Virus record (IMG/VR): IMGVR_UViG_3300009157_000035
Coordinates: 1-32,700 of that record
DNA: 32,700 bases
From: a virus
Direction: 5' to 3' (one strand)
Below, piece by piece: positions 2,145 through 31,432 of this stretch. Position numbers and translations under genes: made by a program. Under the pieces are notes generated by a model, which saw only the letters and a list, made by a program, of their open reading frames with translations, was not told where the DNA came from and did no database searches. Position 1 is the first letter of the stretch. The number at the start of each line of letters is the position of its first letter.

Positions 2145-2615
2145 ATGAATGTGTGTGCTTGTGGTAGTGAAATAGAAAAGCCGCATGTTGGGCATTGGTC
2201 ATGTATGATGCGCTATTGCGAAGAACTGCCATTAGAACAAAAGTTAGATCTTTGTTGGAAGGGATGGGAGCAAGCGCGACATCTGCATGAAATGCATGCT
2301 TTTATGGGCATTCGTAACCATAAGTTAGAAGAATTATTACAGCCAATTGACTTTGAAAAAAAAGAACGCTACAAGATCAAATTCGTATGTATTGACCAAG
2401 AAGAGAAAGAGCTTTCTCAGAAGATAGCGGATATTTTAAATGGCAGAGAAGGCGTTAACAAAATAATAGAATTGATCGCCAAGAAGCATAAAAAGTTTAA
2501 AGAAGTGGAACGATTGATCAGTGTCATAGGCTACGTACGTCCATCATGTTTGACCCACGAACCAGAGGGAGTTGTATGTTTAATGGATGGCATGTTGCCT
2601 GAGGAGAAAGAGTAG
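2145..2615 (+). CDS. Hypothetical protein with cysteine-rich N-terminus
   Basis: I chose ATG 2145 (156 residues) because AAGG at 2133-2136 fits it; a TTG at 2124 is an alternative that overlaps the previous gene. The first 30 residues contain CACGSE, then HVGHWSC and RYC, a possible metal-binding knuckle. The rest is a charged helical segment (residues about 75-125, rich in E and K). It ends MLPEEKE, like its upstream neighbour, and the codons for this ending again supply the ribosome site of the next gene. Function unknown. Confidence 0.65.
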   Translation: MNVCACGSEIEKPHVGHWSCMMRYCEELPLEQKLDLCWKGWEQARHLHEMHAFMGIRNHKLEELLQPIDFEKKERYKIKFVCIDQEEKELSQKIADILNGREGVNKIIELIAKKHKKFKEVERLISVIGYVRPSCLTHEPEGVVCLMDGMLPEEKE

Positions 2616-2622
2616 GCGATTT

Positions 2623-3444
2623 ATGGCAATTAATAATGAATATTACGTATTACGGAAACACGAAATTATCCATCAAATAAATTGCCATAAGAGAGATATT
2701 GGTTATTTAGAAAAGGAATTAAATCGGTTCTCAGAGATTGAAAATGGTGCAGCGATTACCGATTATGAGCGATTGATATTTGATGCTGATATAAGAATGA
2801 GGGCATTGCGCTGTGGAGATATAGAAGGTAAGGAAGCAATTTCGAGGGAGTTTAATCAATCTCTTCGTCAATTATCTAAGCCATCACCCGAAGATTTATT
2901 AAAAGTTGCCTTAACGCTTGCTCAAAAAAATCATCTTGATAAAGAGGTAGGCTGTGTGTACATTTCATCGGTATTTGCGAAAAACGATGATATATATTTT
3001 ATAGGCACTTGCCAAAGGTGCAGCGAAACTGCGGAGTATGATTATGACACGGTTCTAGGGAGAAATAGAGAAAAAAAGATTCGCCCTGGCTCGTGTCCTT
3101 CTTGTTATATAACGTCCCATGAAAGATGTAAGCTTAGATCTTCATTCCCTGGAACATATACTTCTTGGTTGGGGGCAATCGATAGATGCACTAACCCTAA
3201 TAATGCCAATTACAAGCATTATGGTGGAAGAGGTATTAAAATCTGCGATGAATGGAAAAATGATTTCAAAATATTTTTACAGGACATGGGACCGCGTCCT
3301 GATGGATTATCCATAGATCGAATTAATGTTGATGGTAACTATGAGGCGTCAAATTGTCGTTGGGCAGACTGGAAAACTCAGGCCAATAACAAAAGAACAA
3401 ACAAATGGTATAAAGAGAAACATCAACTAACGATTAAGGATTAA
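2623..3444 (+). CDS. Homing-endonuclease-like protein with YGGRGI module
   Basis: ATG 2623 gives 273 residues; the longer frame from 2587 would overlap the previous gene. Residues 130-161 form a zinc ribbon (CQRC ... CPSC). Residues 178-258 match the common phage module that runs Y..W...I.RC.NP.N ... YGGRGI ... W..F..DMG.RP ... DRIN..GNYE..NCRW ... QANN.R. It is usually annotated as HNH or homing endonuclease. The first 125 residues are helical and unlike the second copy of this module at 7151. Such proteins are selfish genes between phage genes that copy themselves by cutting related genomes. Function is by family resemblance; activity is untested. Confidence 0.75.
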   Translation: MAINNEYYVLRKHEIIHQINCHKRDIGYLEKELNRFSEIENGAAITDYERLIFDADIRMRALRCGDIEGKEAISREFNQSLRQLSKPSPEDLLKVALTLAQKNHLDKEVGCVYISSVFAKNDDIYFIGTCQRCSETAEYDYDTVLGRNREKKIRPGSCPSCYITSHERCKLRSSFPGTYTSWLGAIDRCTNPNNANYKHYGGRGIKICDEWKNDFKIFLQDMGPRPDGLSIDRINVDGNYEASNCRWADWKTQANNKRTNKWYKEKHQLTIKD

Positions 3445-4814: not shown

Positions 4815-5315
4815 ATGAAGTATTTAGAGCGGTTAAACAAGTATAAGTTTACACAGGTTCAAATGGACGCACTGCTTGGCTTTGGTGGGGAGATATTAGA
4901 AACCGTGTTTGAACGTTTTGACAGTCGGGGCGAGGTGCCAACGGGCTTACAGCTTTATGGGGAGTGTGAGAAAGAGCAAGCCAGTCCGTCTAGTGATCTT
5001 ATGAAAAAGAAGATTGCGGCACAATTGCCATCTGTCAAAGAGATGGTAAAGCACATTAACCAAGAAGAGCATAGACCGCACAAGCCCTATTTTTATGGAG
5101 ACCATCCGCATGCGCGGTTTGATTTCTATCACACGGGTCGGCGTGATAAGGGTACGCGCGAGGGTTGGTGCGCTTACCGGATGCGTCTTTTAAGTCATTC
5201 TCTCGAGCATGTGGCAACTGATGAAGCGCGCTCAAAGCTTGAATTTGAGTATGCTGAGTGTGTGGCGGAGTCAAAAGATTATAATCTTTCTGAGTTTAGT
5301 TTGCCGCATGAGTAA
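4815..5315 (+). CDS. Hypothetical early phage protein
   Basis: ATG 4815 follows AAAGG at 4802-4806. The 166-residue protein is soluble and charged, with no signal peptide or membrane segment. A histidine-rich stretch lies at about residues 79-106 (HINQEEHRPHKPYFYGDHPH). I do not recognise the family. It follows the initiator candidate by 58 bases and is the last gene before a regulatory gap with a large inverted repeat, so it probably ends the replication operon. Confidence 0.65.
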   Translation: MKYLERLNKYKFTQVQMDALLGFGGEILETVFERFDSRGEVPTGLQLYGECEKEQASPSSDLMKKKIAAQLPSVKEMVKHINQEEHRPHKPYFYGDHPHARFDFYHTGRRDKGTREGWCAYRMRLLSHSLEHVATDEARSKLEFEYAECVAESKDYNLSEFSLPHE

Positions 5316-5319
5316 ATTA

Positions 5320-5399
5320 GTGGCGGGCTCTTGTCTGATCGTTCTTTTTTGGGTGGTATACATTGGACAAGAGCCCGCCACCCCCACACCAAAAAGAAC
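5320..5399. repeat. Interlocking inverted repeats (A-B-A'-B')
   Basis: Arm A (5320-5335, GTGGCGGGCTCTTGTC) is perfectly complementary over 16 bases to A' (5366-5381). The loop between them contains B (5341-5349, GTTCTTTTT), which pairs with B' (5391-5399) beyond A'; with a bulge the B pairing can be extended by several more bases. The order is that of a pseudoknot, but only a few bases separate A' and B', so both full stems could hardly coexist and the two are more likely competing structures. No T-run follows stem A. It starts five bases after the stop of the preceding gene. Confidence 0.7.
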
Positions 5400-5475
5400 T
5401 CTCTTCCATAAACCCCTATTTGCTGACGCATTAGTCGGCTCCCCTAGAGATCTTTAAACATCTTTTCATAATTGC

Positions 5476-5504
5476 TTGACATTGCAAGAAGTTAGTTGTA
5501 ATCT
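5476..5504 (+). promoter_or_regulatory. Candidate promoter for the 5.5-6.5 kb operon
   Basis: A perfect -35 TTGACA (5476-5481) is followed after 17 bases by TAATCT (5499-5504), a weak -10; TATAAC at 5504-5509 is a poorer-spaced alternative. It sits 36 bases before the start codon of the next gene, in a 224-base gap. Confidence 0.45.
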
Positions 5505-5539
5505 ATAACCATGATACGAAAAAACCTTAGGAGTTAAAG

Positions 5540-5731
5540 ATGGAACTGACACAATTCGACATAGCAGCAACCGAGCAAGCAGTAGAAACGTTCAAGCAAC
5601 AAGCGCGCGAAGAGTTCAAGAAGTGGATACTTGAGTTCTACCCAGAAGACTACGCACGGGAGCTGTGCAAAGAAGTCGCTACTTCGCTAAAGCTACGAAG
5701 CGCAAGTAAAGCACGACAAGCAAAGAACTAA
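5540..5731 (+). CDS. Small helical hypothetical protein
   Basis: TTAGGAG (5527-5533) gives a strong ribosome site for ATG 5540. The 63-residue protein is charged and predicted helical throughout, ending in a basic tail (RSASKARQAKN). It is the first gene after the TTGACA promoter and sits 9 bases before its neighbour, so it is the leader of a short operon. Family not recognised. Confidence 0.6.
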   Translation: MELTQFDIAATEQAVETFKQQAREEFKKWILEFYPEDYARELCKEVATSLKLRSASKARQAKN

Positions 5732-5740
5732 GGGGAAGCG

Positions 5741-6205
5741 ATGGAAATCACCAGCGAAATGATTGAACAAGCAAAACAAACAGCAGCGAATATGACCGCA
5801 GAACAAACAGCCAGCATGAAGCGCGATCCCTTTTATTGGCAAATGGTTATGTTGAAAAACGATGATTTGGATGCGAAACAGTTATGGGAAGCTACCAAGA
5901 AAGTGCTACGGGAATTTAAGAAGGTTAACAAGCTTGATATGAAAATTAAAATGCACAAAGATGGTTATGGCTTGGTGCAGGTGATTCTTGATGCTGAGCG
6001 TTCTAAGTTATTGATTGAAGAACAATACAAGCCTGTTGAAGACAATAAACTTTTATATAGTAGCGCGCGTTCATATGTTAAAAGCTTGCGCGCTTGTCTT
6101 GATGGAATATTGGCATATTACAACGCGTTAGATCAGCGATTGAAGCCAGATCGCGGTTGTGGCTTAATGTATCACTGCGAGCTAATCATAAACATTCGTC
6201 CTTGA
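5741..6205 (+). CDS. Hypothetical early phage protein
   Basis: AAGGGG just upstream supports ATG 5741. The product has 154 residues, is mostly helical, and has no signal peptide or membrane span. The N-terminus (MIEQAKQTAANMTAEQ) looks amphipathic. No catalytic motif is visible and I do not recognise the family. It is cotranscribed with the small genes on either side (gaps of 9 and 10 bases). Confidence 0.65.
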   Translation: MEITSEMIEQAKQTAANMTAEQTASMKRDPFYWQMVMLKNDDLDAKQLWEATKKVLREFKKVNKLDMKIKMHKDGYGLVQVILDAERSKLLIEEQYKPVEDNKLLYSSARSYVKSLRACLDGILAYYNALDQRLKPDRGCGLMYHCELIINIRP

Positions 6206-6519: not shown

Positions 6520-6548
6520 GCAAGCAACAACCAGTTCAAGGAGCGTAC

Positions 6549-6701
6549 ATGTTCTTACTTCTTTTGTTGCTGTTAATCCCCTCATGCGTGCCACACAAGC
6601 GAATAGTCACCCTTCAACGCAATGATGAGATATACAAAGTTCACTGGGAACACTCACACGCAGCTGATCAAAAAACACTTGCCAATACGCCACCCAATTA
6701 G
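6549..6701 (+). CDS. Tiny phage-encoded lipoprotein
   Basis: AAGGAG (6538-6543) fixes ATG 6549; the longer frame from 6510 would start inside the promoter. The 50-residue product begins MFLLLLLLLIPSC, a short signal with an IPSC sequence resembling a lipobox, followed by a polar tail of 37 residues. It is probably lipid-modified on C13 and anchored in a membrane. It has its own promoter and ribosome site and looks like cargo rather than part of the replication operon. Superinfection exclusion or an Rz1-like outer spanin are possible roles; no partner spanin is seen next to it, so neither is claimed. Confidence 0.6.
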   Translation: MFLLLLLLLIPSCVPHKRIVTLQRNDEIYKVHWEHSHAADQKTLANTPPN

Positions 6702-7150: not shown

Positions 7151-7999
7151 ATGATTGGCGAACGCTACGGTCATTGGACTATTGTTTCTGATATTCCAAG
7201 AAAAGGAAAAGATAGAAGGTATTCGTATTTGTGTCAGTGCGATTGCGGCGAACAACTTTATTTAAGATTATACGTTTTGCAAAAAAGAAACCAGTGTAGA
7301 AAATGTAGCAATAGATCGCGATTGCGTGATTATACGGGTGAGAAATGGGGGAAATGGACTTTTATTGAAAAGTTACCAAAAAAAAAGAAATCCCACTTTT
7401 TATATAGAGTTCAATGTGATTGTGGAACTGTAAGAGAATGTCTAGCAACTGATTTAAAGTACCATAATCAATATGGTTGCGTAAAATGCTTTATTAAATC
7501 GAAAACCACACATAATATGTCTTATCACCCACTGTATAGGGTTTGGTCAACGATGATCGAGCGATGTACAAACGAAAACAATAAGGCCTATAAATGTTAT
7601 GGTGGTCGTGGTATATCTGTTTGTGAGGCTTGGGTTAATTCGTTTGAACAGTTCCATAAAGATATGGGAGAGCGCCCGAAAGGCTGCTCGCTTGATAGAA
7701 TAGACAATAATGGGAATTATGAACCCAAAAATGTTCGTTGGGCGACGCCAAAAGAACAAGCAAATAATCGACGCATTTTAAAAGATATTGCGGGGCAAAT
7801 ATTCGGCTCATTTAAAGCTTTAGAGTTGGTGCCAAACTTTAAATATGGAAATACGTATTATAAATGCTTGTGTAAATGTGGAAATATAGAAATTAGAAAG
7901 GCCGCTGATTTAAGAAGAGGACGAACTAAGTTTTGTAAAGTATGTTTACTTGAGCAACAATCAAAGAGGTTTGTTCATGAAACGACGCAAAAACATTGA
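7151..7999 (+). CDS. Second YGGRGI homing-endonuclease-like protein with three zinc ribbons
   Basis: The 282-residue protein carries the same nuclease-like module as the gene at 2623, at residues about 129-208 (YRVWSTMIERC ... YGGRGI ... DMGERP ... SLDRIDNNGNYEP ... RWATPKEQANNRR). Around it are three copies of a zinc ribbon with a CxCG knuckle and a later CxxC: residues 28-52, 89-113 and 239-265. The first two are preceded by a G..G.WT.I strand, the third by FGSFKALE. Such ribbons likely bind DNA and set target specificity. It sits between RusA and terminase and overlaps the small terminase start by 23 bases. It is probably a free-standing homing gene. Confidence 0.78.
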   Translation: MIGERYGHWTIVSDIPRKGKDRRYSYLCQCDCGEQLYLRLYVLQKRNQCRKCSNRSRLRDYTGEKWGKWTFIEKLPKKKKSHFLYRVQCDCGTVRECLATDLKYHNQYGCVKCFIKSKTTHNMSYHPLYRVWSTMIERCTNENNKAYKCYGGRGISVCEAWVNSFEQFHKDMGERPKGCSLDRIDNNGNYEPKNVRWATPKEQANNRRILKDIAGQIFGSFKALELVPNFKYGNTYYKCLCKCGNIEIRKAADLRRGRTKFCKVCLLEQQSKRFVHETTQKH

Positions 8000-17432: not shown

Positions 17433-17945
17433 CTAGATGTTTTTCCAGGTTTTATGTTTAACGATTTTTCTGACACAATCATAGCCAACCTTGAACTTGC
17501 GAGCGATTTCTCTCTGATTAAGGCCTTCAGCAAATGATTGCCTAATTTGTGGGACAACTTCTGTTGTAACTGTGCAATAAGACAATCTACCTTTCCCTAG
17601 CGCATCTATTATGTTTTCTTGATGTGAGCCTAGCCAAAGATGTTCAGGGTTTACGCATGGAGGATTATCGCAACTATGACAAATTTCTTTGCCTTCTGGA
17701 ATTGTTCCATTATAAAGTTCCCAGGATATGCGGTGGGCTCGAATGCCTTTGTTTTTAATATACATTCGTCCATAGCCTTTATCGTCTTTTGCTCCCTGCC
17801 AAACCCAACAATTGTCGGTCATTTTTACATGTGATAGAAATCTGCAAATTAAAGAACAAAATGCTTTTTGACCAGGAATATCTATTCGTTGACATGATTT
17901 ATGACATGTTAGGCATTTGTCGTCGACAATGTTATATCTTTTCAT
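17433..17945 (-). CDS. HNH homing endonuclease (HNH_3 type) with C-terminal helix-turn-helix
   Basis: I chose ATG 17945 (170 residues), preceded by AAGGAT; the longer frame from 18161 lies inside the adaptor gene. Residues 11-34 have CxxC and CxxxC pairs (a zinc knuckle). Residues 47-120 form the HNH_3 domain: CWVWQG, then AHRISWELYNG (H71), ICHSCDNPPCVNPEHLWLG (H90, N99, H102) and ALGKGR. Residues 143-162 read as a helix-turn-helix (NQREIARKFKVGYDCVRKI). It is a free-standing mobile gene between structural genes. It could also help spread the nearby group I intron, which has no endonuclease of its own. Confidence 0.88.
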   Translation of the reverse strand: MKRYNIVDDKCLTCHKSCQRIDIPGQKAFCSLICRFLSHVKMTDNCWVWQGAKDDKGYGRMYIKNKGIRAHRISWELYNGTIPEGKEICHSCDNPPCVNPEHLWLGSHQENIIDALGKGRLSYCTVTTEVVPQIRQSFAEGLNQREIARKFKVGYDCVRKIVKHKTWKNI

Positions 17946-17955
17946 TGAATGATCC

Positions 17956-18972
17956 TTATCCATTGACCCACCATCCAAATGGTCCGGGCCATCCAGAGCC
18001 AAATCCCGATTGTTCGGTATAGATGGTAGCTGATCTTTCATTGGCCTGTTGAACAAGTGTTCTGCGTTGTATAAGTTCTTCTTGTTTGATGAATTCGGGC
18101 ATGATCTGCTGGATATCATCAAATTGATTTCTGTCTTCAAAGACCTTCTTGGCTGCGCCATAAGCTATGTACTGAAACCATTCATTATATTGTGGGGCTT
18201 GGCCAGATGCTATTAATTGAGTGGGTTGTGCATAAGCTTCCATGTTTATGGCATAAGCTTGGTCGGGTACTGGTCGTACCGTGAATGTGTCCTGGTAGAA
18301 CAACAGTGCAACTGGCCGAGCTGCTTGATAGGGAACTGTTTGCGCATTAACCTTGGCGTTGGCAGCTGGTGCAGATTCAAAATCTATAAGAAACCCGCCT
18401 GTTATATAGTTGATTGTGCCGCGTGGGACTAATGTTTGAGTGTTAACAAGATTGCCAGCATAGGGCAATCCAGCAACGGGCTCGTCTTTATATGAAATAC
18501 TATTACCACTTGCGTCAATGGCAGATATTAAGACGTTGTTTTGCAGAAAAGGGTGTTGGTTTATTGTGCCCGTAAAAACCGTTAATCCGCCCGCCGTCCC
18601 AAGCCCTATTTGCTGGATATACGTTATAAATGGATAGATATTAAAAAATTGTTCCCTGCTCTGCGAATAGAATGAGCGATAACCGGCTATATAGATCGGT
18701 TCATGTATGCTTATGTATTTATTCTTAAAGTCATAGAGTGGGCTTAAAGTATCTGTGGTGTTTGTTGAATATGTATCAATATTTGCGGTTGTATAAAAAG
18801 TGAGAGTAGTTCTTAAGCTTTTTAGGCGTAAATGCTCAGGCATATCATATGCAATAAACGTATTTACATACTGATCAATATCATTATCAGACAATTGATT
18901 GGTTGAAGGGTTTCTGGTAAGACGCCGTACTTTGATGCGTATGTCGTTGAGGGTTGATGTTGCTAGAGGCAT
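17956..18972 (-). CDS. Probable head-tail adaptor/tail accessory protein
   Basis: AAGGA supports the start. The 338-residue protein starts with a helical segment (TLNDIRIKVRRLTRNPSTNQLSD) and ends with WFQYIAYGAAKKVFEDRN followed by long charged helices (QEELIQRRTLVQQANERSATIY). The latter pattern is common in podovirus adaptor proteins that sit under the portal. Its end overlaps the ribosome site region of the HNH gene. It lies between the short adaptor-like gene and the nozzle gene, matching a connector role. Assignment is moderate. Confidence 0.6.
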   Translation of the reverse strand: MPLATSTLNDIRIKVRRLTRNPSTNQLSDNDIDQYVNTFIAYDMPEHLRLKSLRTTLTFYTTANIDTYSTNTTDTLSPLYDFKNKYISIHEPIYIAGYRSFYSQSREQFFNIYPFITYIQQIGLGTAGGLTVFTGTINQHPFLQNNVLISAIDASGNSISYKDEPVAGLPYAGNLVNTQTLVPRGTINYITGGFLIDFESAPAANAKVNAQTVPYQAARPVALLFYQDTFTVRPVPDQAYAINMEAYAQPTQLIASGQAPQYNEWFQYIAYGAAKKVFEDRNQFDDIQQIMPEFIKQEELIQRRTLVQQANERSATIYTEQSGFGSGWPGPFGWWVNG

Positions 18973-21027: not shown

Positions 21028-22235
21028 TTATGATACCAACAGGGTTGCACGCAGAGACAACAACCACGCGTCATTCAATAGACGTGGGACCATTGCCGTT
21101 ACGTACGCCGCTGTTGCGTTAAGCATTAATGGACCGCCAGCAATTTCTTTAGGTGCATACCTAAATTGTTGTGGATAACCATCTTGATCGACAATGCCGT
21201 AAGCCTCTAAGCCAGTGACAAAAATGTTGTAAACATTGTTGCCAAGAGCAGAAGATGTAGGAAGAACGGAACCAGCAGATGATATCCAGAAGCGGACATT
21301 GCCAATGTTCCCAAACTCGCTTTCTCCAATTCCTTGCTGGGCTGGATACTCAGCAGTTGGTCTGAATCCATTAACATTCTGCATATCTGGTGTTAAATCG
21401 CTATGACACATTGCCAAGAAGCAATTTCTCACCGGGGCTGTTCCAAATTTATTGGTGCCATCGATCATTTGAGCAATAGTTTTAGCATTATTGCCAACCA
21501 ATGTGCGATAGATCAAATCAATGTCAGAACGCGTTAGATTTGTAGGCGTGTCTCCATTGGTTCCATGTGTACAGTTAACAACTGAAGCTGTTGCTGCAAG
21601 CATGTCACGAGTCAATTGATCTTCCGTTTCACGAAGGTCCATACCAAGAAGTTTTGCGGCCTCTGTAAGAACTGGATCTTGTGCTTGACAATTAGAAATT
21701 AATACTTCTAATTTCTGTTACTTTTTTGACCTACTTCTAGGCGGGAAGTCTTGTTATTCCTTCCTCCAATTCTTTCGAATTGGTTCAGACTATCACATAA
21801 CTCATTGCTGAGCTCCAAAGGGGTTAGTCGTTGCGGCTGTGCGTTCCATACGGAATACTTGCCTCTGGTTACCATGCTCATTATAGAGTTTAGGCTTTCC
21901 ATGTAATTACCTTCGGTTTATTGACCCCTCAAATTACCAAGGGTCACTTGTTCGTTAATGTACAGCCACGTCCCGTAGAAATCCATTTTAGAATCGATGT
22001 CGATCGCGCTCAGGGTTTTCGAAGGCGGATTAACGCCTGAATTTCCTAAAGGAACTGGCGATGTACCTAGACGATTGTAGCGACGCATACGAAGCGTAGT
22101 ACCGCCATTTTTTGGCATCCTAAACTTCAATGCAAAAAGATTGTGGATCAGTGTTGGAAAGGGGACCGAAAGAAGCATCTGGGAAAAGCTTTGCTGGATC
22201 GGCGCACTTAACACTGACGTAGTTGTTAATGCCAT
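21028..22235 (-). CDS. Major capsid protein, split by a group I intron (two exons)
   Basis: Exon 1 is 22235-21940 and exon 2 is 21688-21028; joined they total 957 bases (318 residues plus stop) in one frame. Residues 30-60 (NLFALKFRMPKNGGTTLRMRR) and 66-98 (SGVNPPSK ... FYGTWLYINEQVT) match the start of N4-gp56-type HK97-fold capsid proteins. After the junction Leu99 the sequence continues QAQDPVLTEAAKLLGMDLRET, then CHSDL ... GFRPTAEYP. Unspliced mRNA would give a 107-residue truncated product ending in the intron. AAGGG supports ATG 22235. It follows the scaffold gene, a terminator and a 190-base leader. This is the main shell protein and should be the most highly expressed. Confidence 0.88.
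21689..21939 (-). ncRNA. Self-splicing group I intron in the capsid gene, no internal endonuclease
   Basis: Length is 251 nt, numbered on the - strand. P1: exon GACCCT pairs with intron GGGGTC (nt 12-17) with the expected U-G wobble at the splice site. P10: exon 2 TCAA pairs with intron TTGA (nt 8-11). P7: GACTA (111-115) with TAGTC (148-152), in the usual contexts GCAACGACTA and GATAGTCTGAAC. P8: CTCA-GCAA-TGAG (128-139). P9: CCAATTC-GAAA-GAATTGG (157-174). A last hairpin AATTAGAA/TTCTAATT precedes the terminal G (nt 251). Excision restores the capsid frame exactly. Group I introns splice themselves using guanosine. Confidence 0.93.
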
Positions 22236-22371
22236 AAGCATCCCTTAAAGTTTGCCCATCAAAAAGGTGATGGATTCCTTTAAGCCGAGACGAAGCTTGG
22301 TGTACGTCTCTTGCCTGGCGGGGGCCAATACGCCGTTGTGTTTGCGAAACACGTACGCATGACCAGTGTAT
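22236..22371 (-). promoter_or_regulatory. Capsid mRNA leader with hairpins
   Basis: This gap has no gene. On the - strand it holds GTGTTT-CGC-AAACAC (22338-22352) and CCATCA-CCTTTT-TGATGG shortly before the ribosome site AAGGG. Such hairpins could protect or tune the capsid message. TATACA near 22365-22370 could be a -10, but no convincing -35 goes with it. Confidence 0.35.
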
Positions 22372-28810: not shown

Positions 28811-31432
28811 ATGGCATTAAATACTTCAAACCCCATCGAATTAATGAACTCATATTTTTGGTCGGGTAACAATTCGGCAGCAGCAACAGGCCCGTATGTT
28901 ATCTTCCAAAAGTCACATGGACCTTTCCAAATTGCGGGTTCTGCAACGCAACAAAATGACGTGCTCGGCTATTTAAGCTTTGCAGGTGATGATGAATCAG
29001 CATCTATACCCGCAGCGCAGATTAGCGCAACATGTATGGACAACACCGTTGCCGCTTCAGGTGTTGTAACATCACAGCTTGGGTTTAGCACATTCAACAC
29101 CTCTCTTGCCGAACGTATGACCATCGGCAAAGATGGAGCCGTAACCATTAACGCTCCGGACGGTGCTGCTGTTGGTCTTACCATTGCAGGCGGTGGTCTT
29201 TCGGTTACCGGTGCAATTACATACACCACAACAACGTATACCGTTACTGCTTCAGCAGCCTCTGCAACGGCAATTTCGTTTGATGCAACCAATGCTGCCG
29301 GTGGAATCACCATGGCAGCGGGTACAGGCGGTCTTAACTTGGGCAACCAAGCAGACTGCACAACGATTGGCATAGGCGACTTTGCTCCAACGGCCTCACG
29401 TACAACTACAATCGGTGGTGGAACGGTTATAACCGCTGCTGTCACAGATACAGTTGATATCGGCCCCGATGGCGCAACGACAAACGCCAACTCGGTAAAG
29501 ACAGTCAATATCAACACTGGCGGCGTAACGCTTGGCCAAGTACTTACTAACATAGCTTCAGGTACAGTCACCTCAGGCACGCATACCACAGGCATTGCTT
29601 CTGGCAACCGTGCTGCTGGTACCATGGCCTTGAACGTAATGACTGGTACGGGCACAAAGACAACCAATATTGGTAACGCTGATGGCCTAACGACCGTCAA
29701 TATTGATGCGATCACGCTCATAAACGACAGCATCAACGTGCAAACCTCAATCAACACCGGCACCTCAACAGGCGCAGTTGTTATTGGTAACGCACTGGCT
29801 GGGGCAATGTCTATCGATACAGCGGCTGGTATATCCCTTGATGGCGCAACAGCTTCTAACTTTACTGTCACAGGCGCCGGCGCAGATCTCACATTGGCAT
29901 CTGTTGGTGGCTCAGTTCTTGTTTCATCTACAGAGAATGCTGCCCAAGCAATTCGTTTATATGCTAATGGCGGCATACTAGAAACTATTGAACTCCATGT
30001 AGATCAGGGTACTGACGTAGCTTCGATTAACTTGCTATCTGACCTTGGTGGTATAGCTTTAACGGCAACTGGCAATGCAACGGCAGACGCAATCAACTTG
30101 AATGCAGTCGCTGGCGGCGTTGATATCGATGCAGCACTTGCTGTAGATATTGATTCTTCTGCGGCTGGTATTGAAATTGATGGCGTGCTTGCAAGTAACT
30201 TTACCGTAACAGGAGCGGGACAAGATTTAACGCTTTCTTCTGTTGGCGGTTCTGTTCTTGTGGAGTCTACTGAGAACGCCGCACAAGCCATTCGCTTACA
30301 TGCCAATGGTGGCGTGCTAGAAACCATCGAACTCCATGCTGACCAGGGTACGGACCCTGCTTCTATCAACTTGCTTTCTGATCTTGGTGGTATCACCTTG
30401 ACCGCGACAGGCAATGCAACGGCCGATGCCATTAATCTAAGCGCAGTTGCTGGTGGCGTTGATATTGATGGTCAAACAGGCGTCACGATTGATTCAGCTG
30501 CAGGTGCGGTATCTATTGATGCTGCTAACGCATCGAATCTTACCGTTTCAGCAGCGGGCCAAGATCTAACGCTTGAATCAACGCTTGGTACGGTTATTGT
30601 AAATTCTGGTGAAGATACTGCACAAGCGATCTATCTGCATGCCAATGGTGGTGTAACAGAAACAATCCAGATCCATGCTGATCAGGGTACCGCAGCAACA
30701 TCGGTCTATCTCTTGTCTGATGCTGGTGGCATTACCGCAACAGCAACCGCAGGGGCAATTGATGTCAATGCAAGCACAGGAATCACCATTGATTCTGCAA
30801 CGGCTGGAGTTTCTGTTGATGGCGTAACGGCTTCTAATTTCACCGTCACAGGCGCAGCCGCTGATTTAACGCTGTCTTCTGTCGGTGGTTCGGTTATTGT
30901 TGCAGCTTCGGAAGCTGCGGCAGATGCTGTGCAGATTACCGCATCAGATGCTGGCGGTGGCATCGCCTTCTCAGCAGGCGCAGGCGCATGTCTTGGCACC
31001 TTGGATGCTGATGGCCTTCGCGTACAAAGCAACTATCGTGTTAACGCGGTACGTACTGGCGGCTCTCAAGCAGTTGGTGCAGCAAATATCGTGATCTTCA
31101 ACACCGAAGGATTCGACCCAGGCAACGACTACAACGATGCAACGGGCGTATACACTGCCCCTGCCTCAGGCATATATCGCATTACAGCGGTTGTTTCTTG
31201 CCTTGATGGTGTAGGTGGTGGAACAAAGACGCTGACGCTTCGTGATGGCGGTGCTGGCACGAACTATGTAGCAACTGCAACGGTGGCGAATGCTGAGCGT
31301 GGTATCTTAACGCTTTCTGTTTTGTATGAACTGACAGCAGCCGACACGATTGATATATACTACGCAGGTGGTGCCGGAGACACAGTGCTCAACGGTGCTC
31401 ATTTGATGGTTGAGTTCGCTTACATTAATTAA
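28811..31432 (+). CDS. Large tail fibre with tandem repeats and C1q/TNF-like tip
   Basis: The 873-residue protein starts with a short attachment region, then beta-rich repeats. Four tandem units begin at about residues 351, 464, 577 and 677 (113, 113 and 100 residues apart), each with FTVTGAxxDLTL, GGSVLV and, in the first three, ANGG..ETI..H.DQGT. The C-terminal 130 residues (from about 745) resemble a C1q/TNF jelly roll: FNTEGFDPGNDYNDATGVYTAP, SGIYRITAVVS and GAHLMVEFAYIN. Such trimeric tips bind host surface receptors. The repeats probably form a long triple beta-helical shaft. Confidence 0.8.
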   Translation: MALNTSNPIELMNSYFWSGNNSAAATGPYVIFQKSHGPFQIAGSATQQNDVLGYLSFAGDDESASIPAAQISATCMDNTVAASGVVTSQLGFSTFNTSLAERMTIGKDGAVTINAPDGAAVGLTIAGGGLSVTGAITYTTTTYTVTASAASATAISFDATNAAGGITMAAGTGGLNLGNQADCTTIGIGDFAPTASRTTTIGGGTVITAAVTDTVDIGPDGATTNANSVKTVNINTGGVTLGQVLTNIASGTVTSGTHTTGIASGNRAAGTMALNVMTGTGTKTTNIGNADGLTTVNIDAITLINDSINVQTSINTGTSTGAVVIGNALAGAMSIDTAAGISLDGATASNFTVTGAGADLTLASVGGSVLVSSTENAAQAIRLYANGGILETIELHVDQGTDVASINLLSDLGGIALTATGNATADAINLNAVAGGVDIDAALAVDIDSSAAGIEIDGVLASNFTVTGAGQDLTLSSVGGSVLVESTENAAQAIRLHANGGVLETIELHADQGTDPASINLLSDLGGITLTATGNATADAINLSAVAGGVDIDGQTGVTIDSAAGAVSIDAANASNLTVSAAGQDLTLESTLGTVIVNSGEDTAQAIYLHANGGVTETIQIHADQGTAATSVYLLSDAGGITATATAGAIDVNASTGITIDSATAGVSVDGVTASNFTVTGAAADLTLSSVGGSVIVAASEAAADAVQITASDAGGGIAFSAGAGACLGTLDADGLRVQSNYRVNAVRTGGSQAVGAANIVIFNTEGFDPGNDYNDATGVYTAPASGIYRITAVVSCLDGVGGGTKTLTLRDGGAGTNYVATATVANAERGILTLSVLYELTAADTIDIYYAGGAGDTVLNGAHLMVEFAYIN
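29861..30950 (+). repeat. Four diverged tandem repeats in the fibre gene
   Basis: The FTVTGA-type segment begins at 29861, 30200, 30539 and 30839, giving periods of 339, 339 and 300 bases. Third-codon positions differ widely while the protein is conserved, so the duplication is old and under selection. Units can recombine and change fibre length. Confidence 0.8.

Follow-up and report, generated by a model that had tools for sequence, protein, structure and literature searches.

A compact putative group I intron in the major capsid gene of a metagenomic phage belongs to a family found almost only in that gene

A group I intron in a phage capsid gene is in itself already known. The major capsid gene of mycobacteriophage LittleE (Cluster J) contains an intron whose splicing was shown by RT-PCR and from the protein N-terminus, and Tuc2009 is cited in the same paper as another phage with a capsid-gene intron (PMC3706429). 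In the Bastillevirinae up to three group I introns occur in the polymerase, terminase and ribonucleotide reductase genes, and that paper raises the question why core genes of this kind alone harbour introns (PMC11878797). Among the giant viruses of amoebae, the faustovirus major capsid gene has 13–18 group I introns per isolate, some with homing endonucleases; kaumoebavirus capsid introns are treated alongside (PMC9116030), and the transcriptome is the subject of a further paper (PMC6247863). Removal of a separate, core-less insert by a group I core has been engineered in the laboratory as trans-excision-splicing and spliceozyme ribozymes (reviewed in PMC6155759).

In the present study we analysed a window of 32,700 nt, the whole stretch of viral DNA from record IMGVR_UViG_3300009157_000035, whose capsid gene and intron both lie on the minus strand (Table 1). 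As in LittleE, a group I-type intron is found in a phage major capsid gene, with U at the exon end and G at the intron end. LittleE differs in having an 819-nt insertion, a different capsid family and host group, and one intron only; moreover its intron carries a bottom-strand LAGLIDADG gene (PMC3706429), whereas the window copy has no endonuclease gene. The window also contains apparently free-standing HNH-type endonuclease genes at 2587–3444 (+), 7151–7999 (+) and 17433–18161 (−), an IS605 OrfB/TnpB-like gene at 683–1825 (−) and, at 28811–31432 (+), an 873-aa repetitive protein with a weak, sub-cut-off C1q-like end, which is probably a fibre or spike.

Table 1. Features of the interrupted capsid gene and of the putative intron in the window
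Feature	Coordinates	Strand	Remarks
Exon 1, major capsid gene	21940..22241	-	ends ...GUGACCCU; spliced protein is the phrog_1357 match
Group I intron (putative), 251 nt	21689..21939	-	RF00028; exact in-frame removal; core covariation with 38 related introns; same-site homologue L019
Exon 2, major capsid gene	21028..21688	-	begins UCAAGCACAAGAUCC...
P1 exon strand GACCCU	21940..21945	-	last U is in the splice-site U.G pair; partner GGGGUC 21928-21923
Internal guide sequence	21923..21933	-	P10 strand UUUGA (21933-21929), then P1 strand GGGGUC (21928-21923)
P3 5' strand CCGAAGG	21910..21916	-	partner CCUUUGG 21821-21815
P4-P5 region and P6 5' strand	21861..21903	-	RF00028 match; family core alignment
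P7 5' strand GACUA	21825..21829	-	partner UAGUC 21792-21788; forms the core pseudoknot with P3
P8 hairpin AGCUCA-GCAA-UGAGUU	21799..21814	-	GNRA loop
P9 hairpin CCAAUUC-GAAA-GAAUUGG	21766..21783	-	GNRA loop
P9.1 (GGAAG/CUUCC) and P9.2 (CCUA/UAGG) hairpins	21730..21764	-	common to related introns (44-intron alignment)
3' tail AAAAAAGUAACAG (conserved), terminal hairpin AAUUAGAA/UUUCUAAUU, terminal G	21689..21727	-	

Removal of the insert, whose 251 nt are not a multiple of three, joins ...YINEQVT-L-QAQDPVLTEAAKLLG... with the frame open; the spliced junction would be AACGAACAAGUGACCCU followed by UCAAGCACAAGAUCC, and the predicted junction peptide is ...INEQVTLQAQDPVLTEAAK. The product has 320 aa from the first ATG of exon 1 (22241) and 318 aa from the ATG at 22235, which agrees with the start of relatives. 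The sequence-only reading had thus placed the interruption and its length correctly, and its splice points, after GACCCT and after the terminal G, restore the 318-residue frame. The spliced protein matched the profile of the phrog_1357 major head protein over residues 3–269 (E 4.4e-30), and Pfam Phage_capsid_4 gave a sub-cut-off match (23 of 27 bits). The comparison with intronless capsid genes suggested by that reading was run, and related proteins have no insertion at the junction site: the junction is gap-free against uninterrupted relatives, with 47–60% identity across the protein. Such relatives are plentiful, six in the first search plus the 80 ranked best in a profile search, which puts uninterrupted genes first and so provides empty-site controls, not the fraction of genes with introns. 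These 80 align across nearly the whole capsid protein as one unbroken stretch. Both exons of the window gene retain conserved protein sequence.

Every structural element named in the sequence-only reading is present: P1 with U-G at the splice site, P7 at the computed positions, the GNRA loops of P8 and P9, and P10, in which the guide strand UUUGA pairs with the exon 2 start UCAAG (21688–21684) and adjoins P1 on the guide. That reading had also called the intron ORF-less. This is right as to a homing endonuclease, which was sought in the window intron and is not encoded there; a 64-aa open frame does exist within it (21902–21708, minus), for which a Pfam search gave no match. After the conserved tail AAGUAACAG come an additional terminal hairpin and then the final G. 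Only two related introns, L019 and L098, which lie on one contig, share this hairpin, and a pattern search for further introns with it found only L098.

The covariance search with the Rfam group I model RF00028, proposed earlier as a check, gave a match over 21949–21766 with E values of 2.2e-6 (901-nt search) and 1.9e-8 for the record, at a score of 32.7 bits, under the curated gathering score of 50 bits; a default Rfam scan of the window at the gathering score reported nothing. Thus a group I model does match, although weakly, and the relatives lack the insertion, so neither of the sequence-level outcomes named beforehand as counting against an intron was found. Minimum-energy folding of the intron was only mildly unusual (z −2.3), and because of the pseudoknot it did not recover the core. 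The strong evidence for the putative group I intron is comparative, rather than coming from folding or the Rfam score. Across 39 introns that lack an endonuclease, taken from many sites, the bases of the 35 named pairs in core helices P3–P9 were paired in 96.0% of cases compared with 71.7% after shuffling, and their covariation was 0.645 compared with 0.190 in shuffles. When the partners were slid by 1–3 columns, pairing fell to 35–43%. Within the family the window intron diverges most, and its row is partly misaligned at P3 in alignment A2. A model of the family core built here (R1) finds one intron in the window, a match that is not independent since the window intron is in its training set.

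A homologue occupies exactly the same insertion site in L019 (IMG/VR 3300044796_000040, intron 5186–5999), which comes from a different metagenome. Compared with the window, P1 of L019 reads CACGCU/GGCGUG instead of GACCCU/GGGGUC and its P10 reads CUGA/UCAG instead of UUGA/UCAA, and in both helices the changes are compensated. Between its two P6 strands L019 has an antisense LAGLIDADG_1 gene (PF00961, E 1.4e-5), in the manner of the LittleE capsid intron; at this place the window intron has a short UUCC/GGAA hairpin. The window intron is therefore an endonuclease-free version of an apparent homing intron. The same-site copies with and without the gene point to one of two probable routes: spread by homing followed by loss of the gene, or spread assisted in trans.

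Could the gene be expressed without splicing? In the unspliced sequence one open frame (22241–21918) stops inside the insert and a second, with its own ATG, starts at 21642, so separate N-terminal (107 aa) and C-terminal (204 aa) pieces of a split capsid gene could in principle be made. However, the exon-2 residues QAQDPVLTEAAKLLG preceding the second ATG, conserved in relatives, would then be in neither piece, and the group I structure would be left without explanation; we consider a split gene very improbable. We give equally little weight to an artefact of assembly or sequencing, or to a capsid gene that is dead, readings for which the single metagenomic record might speak: the catalytic core of the insert covaries, its removal restores the frame exactly, another metagenome has a homologue at the same site, and the conserved protein sequence is kept in both exons. 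The least probable account is an insert of another type, which nothing beyond the interruption itself favours. An intein is excluded by internal stops and the out-of-frame length, no group II family was among the Rfam matches, and against programmed translational bypass stands the group I core of the window insert, a structure absent, to our knowledge, from the known bypass gaps.

The 251-nt insert is therefore almost certainly, judging from the sequence comparisons, a compact group I self-splicing intron in the major capsid gene, although its splicing is something that we infer. The insert interrupts the gene in codon 101. In the folded capsid transcript the guide would pair with the exon 1 end in P1 and with the exon 2 start in P10, and a guanosine bound in P7 would attack after the U of GACCCU. 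The freed exon 1 would then attack after the terminal G of the intron, joining the exons and restoring the capsid frame. Because the intron breaks the reading frame, capsid output would depend on this splicing.

The family to which the window intron belongs is nearly confined to this capsid gene. Among 20 capsid relatives from the protein search, 14 were interrupted one to four times, at differing places. A search of IMG/VR with the 3' motif, blind to the gene, returned 75 stretches, of which 70 contained the same capsid gene; the other five matches (L079, L104, L128, L076 and L086) were in a gene taken, from its translation read by eye, to be the portal gene. All are metagenomic contigs, several of them near-identical copies, and this motif sampling does not give a true intron frequency. 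Combined automatic and manual junction finding placed introns at no fewer than 20 distinct codons of the ~316-codon capsid gene, and the family would have entered it repeatedly, at many sites. Nearly all of the introns, with few exceptions, have U before them, a terminal G and a P1, and this adherence to splicing rules supports the group I reading. In loci checked by hand, removal of the interruptions gave intact capsid proteins. The extreme case is L059 (8387–11195), with five full group I introns and one short insert of the kind described below: the intervening sequence of 1,867 nt is approximately twice the coding length, and once all six are taken out the capsid protein is intact, with 316 residues. 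The first automatic junction finder misplaced several boundaries beside such short inserts, and the argument uses hand-fixed boundaries. R1 gave one to seven matches in each of 30 records, those placed being in the capsid or portal gene. RF00028 found only one intron in the records of the first 20 relatives; Rfam alone would thus miss nearly all of the family, and R1 was needed.

This concentration resembles that in faustovirus and kaumoebavirus, where many group I introns likewise crowd into the major capsid gene; those are not phages, and the available portions of these accounts describe no core-less mini-inserts (PMC9116030; PMC6247863). Multi-intron phage genes, one with a small exon between two introns, are also found in the Bastillevirinae, but there only in replication and packaging genes (PMC11878797).

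Two further observations concern the relatives. In L075 (9552–9556), and also in L089, L137 and L143, a 5-nt insert UAAUG lies at or next to the site of the full introns of L017, L038 and L105, which start with UAAU and end with G. It looks like a fossil of an intron deletion that left an overlapping stop-start, and in such a lineage the capsid protein may be made as two pieces, or the 5 nt may be removed. Furthermore, three of seven genome-bin matches of the capsid gene (L226, L231 and L232) fell in Chlamydiota bins (Simkaniaceae, Parachlamydiaceae and Parachlamydia), the genes of L231 and L232 being interrupted; this is a possible hint of the host, binning of phage contigs being unreliable.

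In the relatives, and not in the window capsid gene, we observed a different kind of interruption. At 34 loci (24 distinct sequences) an insert of 28–59 nt follows the Gly codon of FYG, entering after UUUUACGGU and ending in G before ACN, and breaks the capsid frame or introduces stops; examples are L007 974–1003, L009 5169–5197, L010 6265–6302, L018 487–545 and L059 9075–9105, with others in L062 and L118. These mini-inserts are too short for a catalytic core. They nevertheless have a P1 of their own, formed by exon UACGGU and guide GCCGUA with U.G at the junction, a terminal G, and a P10 made by the guide N'GU, which directly precedes the P1 strand, and ACN, the opening codon of exon 2. By inspection, N' is complementary to N in 24 of 24 sequences; the count for the larger group is 17 of 17 and comprises four pair types (GC 8, AU 3, CG 3, UA 3). 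On the exon side this base is the third, silent position of a Thr codon, so that the match cannot come from constraint on the protein.

A full group I intron lies just downstream in all 34 loci by inspection, at a distance of 9–17 codons (9 or 17); 24 capsid loci were found by the mini-insert pattern, in a search that did not require a downstream intron. None of 86 uninterrupted capsid genes had a mini-insert, which is so by construction, as a gene with such an insert would not have matched unbroken. A tether is formed by the 3' half of the mini-insert, which pairs with exon sequence ending right at P1 of the full intron. In 20,000 permutations, the loci's own pairing beat re-paired loci every time in the larger group (17 sequences) and in all but 9 in the smaller group (7 sequences), figures that kinship among the loci inflates somewhat; compensating changes are visible in the alignment.

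Translational bypass was considered as an explanation of the mini-inserts. It was set aside because no landing codon matches the GGU take-off (resumption follows AAG, TTG, UAG and others), while the two exons are brought together by P1 and P10 in the manner of group I splicing. Most simply, the mini-inserts may be splicing substrates served by the core of the neighbouring intron. We therefore lean slightly towards a second intron class, 28–59 nt long and confined to one fixed codon, with its own P1, P10 and terminal G, tethered to the downstream intron and excised by its core. The proposed route is like that of the trans-excision ribozymes in that a group I core removes a separate core-less insert; in the engineered systems the ribozyme holds the guide, while each natural mini-insert has a guide of its own. 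In the searchable subset of the literature we found no report of natural excision of one intron by the ribozyme of another. Separately, a second, differently ordered insert of ~40 nt, with approximate boundaries, is present near the same place in another capsid clade (L083 ~6520–6650 in minus-strand coordinates, L125 7083–7200, L133 and L138); in L083 a helix beside the downstream P1 (UUAGUGAU/AUCACUAA) seems present.

Taken alone, the window adds one more phage in which the supply of capsid protein should depend on splicing by a ribozyme. The wider picture, a capsid intron hotspot together with core-less mini-introns, appears to be new for phages, as judged from the relatives and covariation. 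The family points to a phage lineage in which the capsid gene has become a hotspot for introns, much as in faustoviruses, and this runs against the view that phage introns favour replication genes. It is also a warning that metagenome annotation misses or truncates capsid genes. The mini-introns, if truly spliced, would be a natural counterpart of the engineered trans-excision ribozymes: natural excision by another intron's ribozyme, in capsid genes with up to five full introns. Introns that depend on the catalyst of another intron would then exemplify a stage that accounts of how trans-acting splicing machinery arose often invoke.
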